Below, piece by piece: positions 26,717-64,000 of a stretch of 64,000 nt of DNA. Position numbers and translations under genes: made by a program. Source of the stretch: Alphaproteobacteria bacterium (GTDB lineage: Bacteria; Pseudomonadota; Alphaproteobacteria; UBA6615); the NCBI GenBank assembly GCA_021774575.1, contig JAJFIX010000031.1, forward strand, positions 340,264-404,263. The letters are read 5' to 3'. Numbering within the stretch: position 1 is the first letter of the stretch; the number at the start of each line of letters is the position of its first letter. The notes beneath the pieces are model-generated. The model ran no database searches, had not been told where the DNA came from, and saw only the letters and a program-made list of their open reading frames with translations.

Positions 26717-26946
26717 CCGCCGAAACTCGCTCTGACGGTAGGGCCTAGGCGAGGTTCACGCATATTAGGGTGGTAAATCACCGCTCTTTTAACCTCGAGA
26801 TCGGACCCGGGAACGCATTTTATTTCGCGTCTTAGTGCAGAATGTGCCCCCGCACCCTTGAATTTTGACCATTTGAGGCCTAATTTTATCTCGTGGCTGC
26901 GGCTTTTTGAGGCGCCGCCACGTATTAGCGTTTCCTCCCTAAACTT

Positions 26947-26979
26947 GGGCCGTGGCACATCGCGGCCCCTTTTTTTTTC
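26947..26979 (+). terminator. Plus-strand rho-independent terminator
   Basis: GGGCCG (26947-26952) pairs with CGGCCC (26963-26968) and is followed by C and nine T residues. It is the obvious terminator for plus-strand transcription from bamE, 230 bp downstream of its stop. The 230 bp between hold no gene I can support. Confidence 0.78.
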
Positions 26980-26982
26980 AAT

Positions 26983-27846
26983 CTACAACTTTACACAACA
27001 GACAGCCGAAATGAGCTGAGCCATATCGTCGGCCAGGTCTTTCCAATAATTCTTTAATTCGAGGCTCTTTTCGTCGAGATAGAGCGCCCGATTAATTTCG
27101 ATTTGCAAACTATGCAGGCCCTGTTTTGGATGCCCGTAACGATCAGTGATAAAGCCGCCGGGATAGGGAATATTTTGCCGAACCGTATACCCCATGCTGA
27201 TTAGGGTCTCCTCGGCCAATTCAATCAATGGCGGTTCGCAAGACCGGCCATTCGCGTTACCAAGCACGAAGTCGACACCCCGCTGCGCATTTGACCCAAC
27301 GCCATCACCAGCAGCATTTGGCGACGGACCGCCGGCCGACGGCATGGAATGGCAGTCTATGACGATACAGTGGCCAAATTGCGCTTTCGTGCTCTCAACG
27401 AGATTTGTCAGGGCATCATGATAAGGTCGATAACAGCGCTCAATGCGATCAGCAGCCTGGGTGAAGGTCAATTTATCCCGATAAATATCAACCCCTCTGG
27501 CGACCACTCGGGCAATGGTACCCAGCCCCGCTGCCACCCTGGGCGACCCGGTATTGACATGCTCGGGAAGCCGACCGTCGAACATGGCGGGGTCGAGTTC
27601 ATAGGGTTCGCGATTTGGGTCGACAAATGCTCGGGGAAAATTAGCCTTCAATAATGGTGCGCCAAATTCCGGCGCCCGGGCAAAGAGTAAATCCACGCAA
27701 ACATCCTCCGACCGCCGCAATACCAACGGGTCGAGCTTGGAGGCCGCAACAAATCCCGGCGGGTAGTCCCGCCCGCTATGGGGCGACGAAAACACCACCG
27801 GTGCACTCTGCCGCTTGGGAAGAAGAATTTCGATCGGTTCAGACAT
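26983..27846 (-). CDS. N-formylglutamate amidohydrolase family protein
   Basis: A 287-residue protein of the N-formylglutamate amidohydrolase fold. Conserved blocks are FSSPHSGRDYP, the RRSEDVCVD loop, the predicted metal/catalytic segment VIDCHSMPS, and LQIEINRALY. In histidine breakdown HutG removes formate from N-formylglutamate. No hut genes are nearby, so the true substrate may be another N-formyl or amide compound. The ATG at 27846 is preferred to the one four codons upstream only by family length. Confidence 0.88.
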   Translation of the reverse strand: MSEPIEILLPKRQSAPVVFSSPHSGRDYPPGFVAASKLDPLVLRRSEDVCVDLLFARAPEFGAPLLKANFPRAFVDPNREPYELDPAMFDGRLPEHVNTGSPRVAAGLGTIARVVARGVDIYRDKLTFTQAADRIERCYRPYHDALTNLVESTKAQFGHCIVIDCHSMPSAGGPSPNAAGDGVGSNAQRGVDFVLGNANGRSCEPPLIELAEETLISMGYTVRQNIPYPGGFITDRYGHPKQGLHSLQIEINRALYLDEKSLELKNYWKDLADDMAQLISAVCCVKL

Positions 27847-61798: not shown

Positions 61799-61841
61799 AT
61801 CAATCCTGGGTCAGACGGTTGGATGACCGCGCGGCGGCAAA

Positions 61842-61865
61842 TGGGGAAACCCGTGGGGAAACCCG
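61842..61865 (+). repeat. 12-bp exact tandem duplication in rnpB
   Basis: TGGGGAAACCCG is repeated exactly at 61842-61853 and 61854-61865, in the part that normally forms the P3 stem. Confidence 0.88.
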
Positions 61866-61990
61866 TCGCTCGCGAGGAAAGTCCGGGCTCCACGGAAACA
61901 CGGTGCCGGCTAACGGCCGGCGGGGGCAACCCTAGGGAAAGTGCCACAGAAAGCAAACCGCCCCGCCAAGCACCAAACGGTGTCAGGCGT

Positions 61991-62025
<35 letters not shown>

Positions 62026-62049
62026 GTCGGCGGTAACGTCGGCGGTCAC
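62026..62049 (+). repeat. 12-bp tandem duplication in rnpB
   Basis: GTCGGCGGTAAC (62026-62037) is followed by GTCGGCGGTCAC (62038-62049), near the expected P12 stem. One base differs. Confidence 0.75.
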
Positions 62050-62216
62050 GGCAAACCCCACCGGGAGCAAGACCGAGTAGGGACGGCACATGGCGCGTTT
62101 TCGAGCCGCCGTCCGGGTGGGTCGCATTGAGGTGTCCGGTAACGGCCACCCCAGATGAATGGTCATCCAGCGTTCTTTATCGAACGTGGACAGAACCCGG
62201 CTTACAGACCGTCTGA

Positions 62217-62236
62217 CCCCGCTAGCGGGGCTTTAC
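62217..62236 (+). terminator. Probable rnpB terminator
   Basis: CCCCGCTAGCGGGG (62217-62230) is a perfect short hairpin right after the 3' end of the RNA, followed by CTTTACTT. The T-tract is weak. Confidence 0.6.
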
Positions 62237-62460: not shown

Positions 62461-62505
62461 ACCCATTGACGCCCATGCTATCCCATGCTATCCCATAATC
62501 ACCCA
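62461..62505 (-). promoter_or_regulatory. Five 10-bp-phased MraZ-type boxes
   Basis: On the minus strand TGGGN occurs five times at exactly 10-bp steps (plus-strand NCCCA starting at 62461, 62471, 62481, 62491 and 62501), each separated by 5 bp. This matches the TGGGN-N5 direct-repeat operator described for MraZ at the mra promoter, although E. coli has three copies. The boxes lie 240-283 bp before mraZ and read opposite to it. MraZ autoregulation is inferred. Confidence 0.72.
62466..62494 (+). promoter_or_regulatory. Candidate dcw-cluster promoter within the boxes
   Basis: TTGACG (62466-62471) is followed after 17 bp by CTATCC (62489-62494), close to the alphaproteobacterial RpoD pattern TTGAC-N17-CTATAT. 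It lies inside the five-box array, as expected for a repressed promoter. No transcript data support it. Confidence 0.45.
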
Positions 62506-62743
62506 AATCGAAGAACGATGCGGCAGACTCCCAAAACGGCGGAAATATTTTGAGCCTGGGCAGTTTTTTAGAGAGGCACGGTCGGAGCAACTGGCGATGG
62601 AAACATCACCGAACTGGGTTCAGAGGAACTGAACCAAATCAATTCGGATAGCCCCGGCCAAAAAACAACACCGTCCTAATTAACGCAGACGATGCGACGG
62701 ACGGAGACGGAGGCAGCCCGTCAAGAGCGGGCCGGCGATTTAA

Positions 62744-63220
62744 ATGGCGCTTTTTCTGTCAACCACGGTCAACAAGATCGACCGTAAAGGCCGGGTTTCA
62801 GTACCCGCAGCCTTCCGCAGCGAGCTTGCGGGACAGGAATTTCACGGCATCGTCGCAATGCCCTCTTTCAAAGCGTCGGCACTTCAATGTGGCGGCATGG
62901 ATTGGATGGAACGGCTTTCAAGCGGAGTGAGTGAGTACGACATGTTTTCGGATGAACAGGACATGCTTTCGGCGACATTGTTTGCGTCGGCCCAGCGCAT
63001 CGCCTTCGACGGCGATGGTCGGATCCTGTTGCCCGAAAGCCTAATCTCTCACGCCAAGCTGACCGACCAGGCCGCTTTCGTCGGTCGCGGCAAGCTTTTT
63101 GAAATCTGGGAGCCCGAAGCCTTCGCGCAACATCAAGCCGACGCCATGAAGCGGGTCGCCGAGCGGGGCCTCACTTTGCGCCCAGCCGCTCCCGCAAATG
63201 ATGATGGGGGGCAAAAATGA
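62744..63220 (+). CDS. mraZ: Transcriptional regulator MraZ
   Basis: A 158-residue MraZ with two SpoVT/AbrB-like swapped-hairpin domains. Their DxxxR signatures are DRKGRVSVP (13-21) and DGDGRILLP (near 89-97). MraZ forms rings, binds TGGGN repeats upstream of itself and represses the division/cell-wall cluster. The stop overlaps the rsmH start (ATGA). The phased boxes at 62461-62505 are the likely target. Confidence 0.96.
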   Translation: MALFLSTTVNKIDRKGRVSVPAAFRSELAGQEFHGIVAMPSFKASALQCGGMDWMERLSSGVSEYDMFSDEQDMLSATLFASAQRIAFDGDGRILLPESLISHAKLTDQAAFVGRGKLFEIWEPEAFAQHQADAMKRVAERGLTLRPAAPANDDGGQK

Positions 63221-64000
63221 TCGGCCATACCCCCGTTTTACTCAACGAAATCATCTCCGCGCTCAACCCGACAACGGGCGCCATCATCGTCGACGCGACA
63301 TTTGGTGGTGGTGGCTACAGTAGAGCAATTTTGGAGGCGGCTCCCTGCGTGGTCTGGGGTATAGATCGCGACGCCGACGCGCTGGCGCGGGGAGCCGAAC
63401 TCGCCAAATCGACAAATGACCGCCTCGCCCTTTTGCATGGTCGCTTCGGCAATATGTGCGCTCTACTACACGCCAAGGGCATTGAAAAAGTCGACGGCAT
63501 CGTGCTCGACCTCGGCGTATCTTCTTTCCAGCTTGACGACCAGGCACGTGGATTTTCCTTCCGTGGCGACGGCCCCCTCGATATGCGCATGGATCAAAGC
63601 GACGAGGCCGGGCCCAACGCTGCCGACTTCGTCAACTCGGCGAGCGAAGAAAATCTTGCCAACATCATTTATGCCTTTGGTGAAGAGCGGGCTTCCCGCC
63701 GCATCGCCCGCGCTATTGTGCGCGCCCGCAGCCTTGATCCCATTCTGACAACCGGCGCGTTGGCCGACATTGTCCGTGACGTCATGCCGTCCCGGCATTC
63801 GGCGCGGCGCCTCGGTCCGGACCCGGCAACCAAAACATTCCAAGCGATTAGAATTCACGTCAATGGCGAGCTTGATGAACTGGACCGCGGTCTCGCGGCG
63901 GCAGAAACCTTGCTCAAGCCCGGCGGACGCCTGGCGGTCGTATCCTTCCATTCTTTGGAGGACCGCCGGGTCAAATCTTTCATGAAGCTACGTGCCGGCG
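63217..64000 (+). CDS. rsmH: 16S rRNA m4C1402 methyltransferase, 3' end cut by window
   Basis: The first 261 codons of RsmH (MraW), which N4-methylates C1402 of 16S rRNA using S-adenosylmethionine. HTPVLLNEII opens it, and VDATFGGGGYSRAI is the cofactor loop. LDLGVSSFQLDDQARGFSF, DMRMDQS and ATKTFQAIRIHVNGEL are conserved. The frame runs into the window edge just after VVSFHSLEDRRVK. The ATG overlaps the mraZ stop by four bases. Confidence 0.97.
   Translation, partial: MIGHTPVLLNEIISALNPTTGAIIVDATFGGGGYSRAILEAAPCVVWGIDRDADALARGAELAKSTNDRLALLHGRFGNMCALLHAKGIEKVDGIVLDLGVSSFQLDDQARGFSFRGDGPLDMRMDQSDEAGPNAADFVNSASEENLANIIYAFGEERASRRIARAIVRARSLDPILTTGALADIVRDVMPSRHSARRLGPDPATKTFQAIRIHVNGELDELDRGLAAAETLLKPGGRLAVVSFHSLEDRRVKSFMKLRAG

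Follow-up and report, generated by a model that had tools for sequence, protein, structure and literature searches.

The window analysed here, a stretch of 64,000 nucleotides from an alphaproteobacterium with a 3.5-Mb genome, carries mraZ, the first gene of a dcw cluster, and upstream of this gene lie five NCCCA boxes (TGGGN on the minus strand) with a period of exactly 10 bp (Table 1). The number exceeds the minimum of three TGGGN words in register expected of an MraZ operator, and all five boxes are present where the sequence-only reading had placed them; the adjacent register positions, 62451 (CACCT) and 62511 (AAGAA), hold none. Three overlapping matches to a three-box array were observed in the window compared to 0.04 expected from shuffles, and five-box arrays would be expected by chance at about 3e-7 per window under independent placement of the words. 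Boxes 2–4 include an exact 10-bp duplication (CATGCTATCC twice). Embedded in the array is a putative sigma70 promoter, TTGACG followed at 17 bp by TATCCC with a TG extension, which a generic promoter scan omits because TATCCC matches TATAAT poorly. The earlier reading had seen a promoter-like pair here, TTGACG-N17-CTATCC, of which the pairing and the -35 element stand, but the hexamer at a 17-bp spacing is TATCCC. By analogy, transcription would start at approximately 62501, giving mraZ a predicted 5' UTR of about 240 nt.

Table 1. Features of the rnpB–mraZ region, in window coordinates.
Feature	Coordinates	Strand	Remarks
rnpB (RNase P RNA, class A)	61811..62220	+	Rfam RF00010, 302.9 bits; neighbour 5' of the array
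Box 1, ACCCA (TGGGT on minus strand)	62461..62465	-	immediately 5' of the -35
-35 element, TTGACG	62466..62471	+
Box 2, GCCCA (TGGGC)	62471..62475	-
Box 3, TCCCA (TGGGA)	62481..62485	-	in the promoter spacer
Extended -10, TGC + TATCCC	62486..62494	+	hexamer 62489-62494; 17 bp from the -35
Box 4, TCCCA (TGGGA)	62491..62495	-	overlaps the -10
Box 5, ACCCA (TGGGT)	62501..62505	-	about the predicted transcription start
5' leader of mraZ	62506..62743	+	238 nt, box 5 to ATG; fold z -2.0
mraZ, presumed reader of the boxes	62744..63220	+	PF02381 over cut-off; DXXXR motifs DRKGR and DGDGR
rsmH	63217..64000	+	runs off the window

The genome thus encodes an MraZ with two DXXXR DNA-binding motifs, which matches the NCBIfam MraZ model with an E-value of 2e-47 and 160.8 bits, slightly below the equivalog cut-off of 162. 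Open reading frames beyond rsmH, named by eye, comprise an ftsL-like gene followed by ftsI, murE, murF, mraY, murD, ftsW and murG, so that the array stands 5' of mraZ at the head of a dcw operon. The mraZ leader is unusually long, with 238 nt after box 5 compared to a class median UTR estimate of about 84 nt; it contains two mini-ORFs (62518, MRQTPKTAEIF; 62597, METSPNWVQRN) and gives a weak folding signal. A long dcw leader is also known from Rhodobacter sphaeroides, where the UpsM/mraZ 5' UTR measures 268 nt (PMC5089854); in contrast to the UpsM leader, no plus-strand terminator was seen in the leader of the window by a generic promoter and terminator scan. The position of rnpB directly 5' of mraZ recurs in distant alphaproteobacteria (L018, L074 and L019) and in SAR11 (PMC2704228), and in some of these distant genomes the rnpB–mraZ spacer is very short, with the boxes inside it. 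Elsewhere in the window, positions 26910-26983 match the suhB/mmgR sRNA family (RF00519, 49 bits).

After a search for MraZ in the relatives and in the class at large, the upstream regions were collected, with the start of each mraZ assigned by a script. At least three CCCA boxes in exact 10-bp register were found in 97 of the 134 non-identical alphaproteobacterial mraZ upstream regions and at least four in 58, while forward TGGG arrays were found in none of the 134 and shuffles yielded no arrays. Box number and strand in the relatives were what the sequence-only reading had proposed to examine, and it would have been undermined by boxes lacking conservation in sister genomes; the arrays are instead conserved class-wide. 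Its remark that the locus has more boxes than the three of Escherichia coli, and in reverse orientation, is borne out on both points, but the reverse orientation proved to be usual in Alphaproteobacteria and not special to the locus.

An alignment seeded from the window, the frame of which is therefore biased towards the window, converged on about 130 of 137 alphaproteobacterial regions with the layout CCCA-TTGACG-CCCA-N6-CCCA-TGnTAT-CCCA-N6-CCCA. The aligned consensus reads CCCA-TTGACG-CCCAT-nnaaT-CCCATGnTATCCCAT-nnnn-TCCCA, and the class profile of the array (CCCATTGACGCCCATnnaaTCCCATGnTATCCCATnnnnTCCCA) has its boxes confined to five register positions. Across 130 alphaproteobacteria, an exact CCCA occupies box 1 in 35, box 2 in 91, box 3 in 108, box 4 in 113 and box 5 in 79, whereas the flanking register positions 0 and 6 hold one in only 5 and 3, a fall-off that is not imposed by the seed. 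Since occupancy drops outside the five positions, the array in this class extends no further than the five boxes of the window. Four boxes are the commonest number, most species having three or four, and five exact boxes occur in 9 of the 130; the genome analysed here keeps all five. The extended -10 is similarly widespread, with TGnTATCCC in 97 of the 130 and TTGA at the offset of the window or one base upstream (17–18 bp spacing) in 109, and the relatives keep the register though their spacers differ. Some mraZ-containing clades (sphingomonad-like and Rhodobacteraceae-like) show drifted boxes or an 11-bp period; in the Rhodobacteraceae-like L043, L044 and L054 the boxes take the form TATCCAT, TATCCAT, TACCCAT and CTCCAT, at a spacing of about 11 bp as read in L043 and L044. 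A separate element, TTTACT, lies about 10 nt 5' of the -35 in 19 of the 130 arrays (e.g. L135, L132, L053 and L117), compared to 14 of 2864 background bins; it is perhaps the site of another regulator or an UP element, and is absent from the window.

The promoter register could be compared with transcription start data for Sinorhizobium meliloti, where the -10 hexamer ends 178 nt before mraZ and a reanalysis of public data places the start site 170 nt before the gene (PMC5089854). The resulting distance of eight bases fits a functional -10, bearing in mind that the annotated mraZ start codon may differ between the strain read here and that of the paper.

Both a scan for exact boxes and a sequence model of the array identified the array upstream of mraZ as the sole convincing one in the 3.5-Mb genome. 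Two other exact three-box matches were discarded as MraZ targets, one being internal to an open reading frame and the other a GC-rich tandem repeat, and the array model (R1) found no second site in this genome. The model gave exactly one match per genome in 30 of 40 relatives, with coordinates just 5' of mraZ, and the best 8 loci of its search in families f67, f140 and f141 all had MraZ directly downstream. In a separate scan, four exact boxes were found in 66 of 192 class genomes; many of these coincide with the upstream coordinates of mraZ, and among the four-box matches listed most share a TATCCC-type core.

The fate of the array where mraZ is missing was assessed at rsmH in those alphaproteobacteria that have rsmH and lack a Pfam match to MraZ. 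Six of these turned out to have a divergent MraZ that a class-specific profile recognises. No MraZ reading frame lies 5' of rsmH in the remaining 18, and none of them showed an array there, the longest chain being two boxes. Within families f67, f140 and f141, model R1 matched in 12 of 12 genomes with mraZ compared to 0 of 12 without it at rsmH (Fisher P of approximately 7e-7, computed on 11/11 versus 0/12 and uncorrected for relatedness, the mraZ-less genomes falling in few families and not all being independent). An array-like match in the mraZ-less genome G289 was rejected, as it is a ATCCCATTAT microsatellite away from rsmH; the locus (L221, C1:196025) has at least five ATCCCATTAT repeats in an apparently coding stretch and looks like a 10-bp repeat tract rather than an operator. 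Four genomes of a single genus that lack mraZ retain the promoter as TTGACG-18-TACC with its TG but no longer have boxes 2 and 5. The boxes are thus kept only where mraZ is present, apart from a partial array in the reduced, mraZ-less genome G144 (L220, C4:7162-7192), in which boxes 1–3 and the promoter stand directly before rsmH. Most simply, this three-box array is a relic; the absence of boxes 4 and 5 gives it the look of decay after a recent loss of mraZ.

Outside the class the arrangement differs. The window resembles the E. coli promoter mraZ1p (Pmra) in that TGGGN recurs every 10 bp 5' of mraZ, where the dcw cluster begins, but the E. coli operator consists of three boxes on the coding strand just 3' of the -10, whereas here five boxes run in the opposite direction over the -35, spacer and -10. 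In the E. coli region read here, the coding strand has TGGG at -43, -33 and -23, the known MraZ site. At least three forward GTGG words in register were found in 20 of 31 non-alphaproteobacterial regions (one from E. coli, and 30 that represent other proteobacterial families in the phylum sample), and reverse arrays in none of the 31. Likewise, among named loci, forward GTG-type repeats were found in Burkholderia, Bacillus, Paenibacillus, Nonomuraea, Bacteroides and Mesomycoplasma, and reverse arrays in S. meliloti, Shinella and Tistrella. The mraZ boxes of Mollicutes and Bacillales (Mesomycoplasma, Bacillus velezensis and Paenibacillus) share with the window a period of 10 bp and a TGG core before mraZ, but they are forward, near the ATG, and have the core GTGG rather than the ATGGGA seen here. 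PmraBc of Burkholderia cenocepacia also has 10-bp repeats (7 + 3 nt), on a fragment to which MraZ bound in gel shift, but its GTG-type repeats lie 3' of the -10, over the TSS (PMC7761207), and in the Burkholderia locus read here they are forward. The arrays seen outside the class are thus forward and placed after the -10, and the E. coli and Burkholderia arrangement, on the coding strand 3' of the -10, was found neither in the window nor class-wide. As the non-alphaproteobacterial arrays are forward, the parsimonious reading of these sequences is that the alphaproteobacterial orientation would be the derived one.

Taken together, the class-wide conservation, the single site per genome and the loss of the array with mraZ support the reading of the array as an MraZ operator. 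MraZ is an AbrB-type protein that forms an octameric ring and represses Pmra in E. coli, and the Burkholderia protein binds a fragment with period-10 repeats (PMC7761207). The five TGGGN boxes would present one site per helical turn on a single face of the DNA, antiparallel to mraZ and spanning approximately -40 to +4, a layout that suits a multimeric protein touching the DNA at each turn and overlying the polymerase site. Over this span they alternate with the elements of the dcw-operon promoter (-35, spacer, extended -10 and start site). An MraZ oligomer on the boxes could thereby shield the core promoter from sigma70-RNA polymerase, and mraZ, rsmH and the dcw genes that follow would come under negative feedback. 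From these comparisons we infer binding by MraZ, the geometry of the ring on the DNA and repression of its own operon. Given boxes on one face over the polymerase site, repression in E. coli and binding in Burkholderia, negative autoregulation of the dcw operon appears the likeliest outcome, and the array is very probably the autoregulatory operator of MraZ.

It is possible, though unlikely, that MraZ bound to the array activates or merely fine-tunes the promoter, given that box 1 lies 5' of the -35, a position open to activators; the boxes, however, extend over the -35, spacer, -10 and start site and would be expected to keep polymerase out, and E. coli MraZ represses its own promoter (as summarised in PMC7761207). 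A more doubtful explanation is that no regulator is involved, the repeats being simply the promoter consensus of Alphaproteobacteria (-35, spacer and extended -10) combined with a local tandem duplication. The promoter elements are indeed embedded in the array, the repeated 10-bp unit in boxes 2–4 is exact, and the core promoter survives in the four related mraZ-less genomes. Nevertheless, boxes 1, 2 and 5 lie outside the -10 and are still conserved in register, the register is kept in relatives despite different spacers, the array occurs once per genome, and loss of mraZ is accompanied by erosion of boxes 2 and 5, TTGACG and TG-TACC being retained. As the boxes are lost with mraZ and the promoter stays, the pattern is hard to explain by a promoter-only role. 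Least probable is that the boxes are read by a different regulator, for instance a cell-cycle factor or a response regulator such as CenR. ChIP-seq enrichment of CenR was reported 5' of R. sphaeroides mraZ, but the study found no CenR motif at that site and no change with inactive CenKR (PMC9275681). The core and 10-bp period of the boxes are those of the MraZ site in E. coli, and the array disappears together with mraZ.

As a candidate MraZ operator, the array of the window appears to be the complete five-box form of an inverted, promoter-embedded operator found throughout the class. The kind of operator is already known, whereas the class-wide inverted orientation and fusion to the core promoter are apparently a new variant; the literature searched, which covers the field in part so that the variant may be reported elsewhere, yielded no mention of this inversion and fusion or of an alphaproteobacterial MraZ motif. 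On balance we lean towards a scenario in which the operator, at or near the base of the Alphaproteobacteria, changed its orientation and left the initially transcribed region for the core promoter, where box and extended -10 fused (CCCATGnTATCCCA), so that the rings would dock in the opposite direction and compete with polymerase for the -35 and -10, compared to an array after the -10 elsewhere.

MraZ heads one of the most conserved bacterial gene clusters, and its role has been little studied outside E. coli, Burkholderia, Bacillus and mycoplasmas. A class-wide inverted and promoter-embedded operator offers a precise, testable prediction for Caulobacter, Sinorhizobium and their relatives, and the loss of mraZ with decay of the operator constitutes a natural experiment. 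Several MraZ entries are available in the PDB, and for structural work the array supplies a DNA ligand with which to ask whether the direction and number of the boxes matter to the ring.
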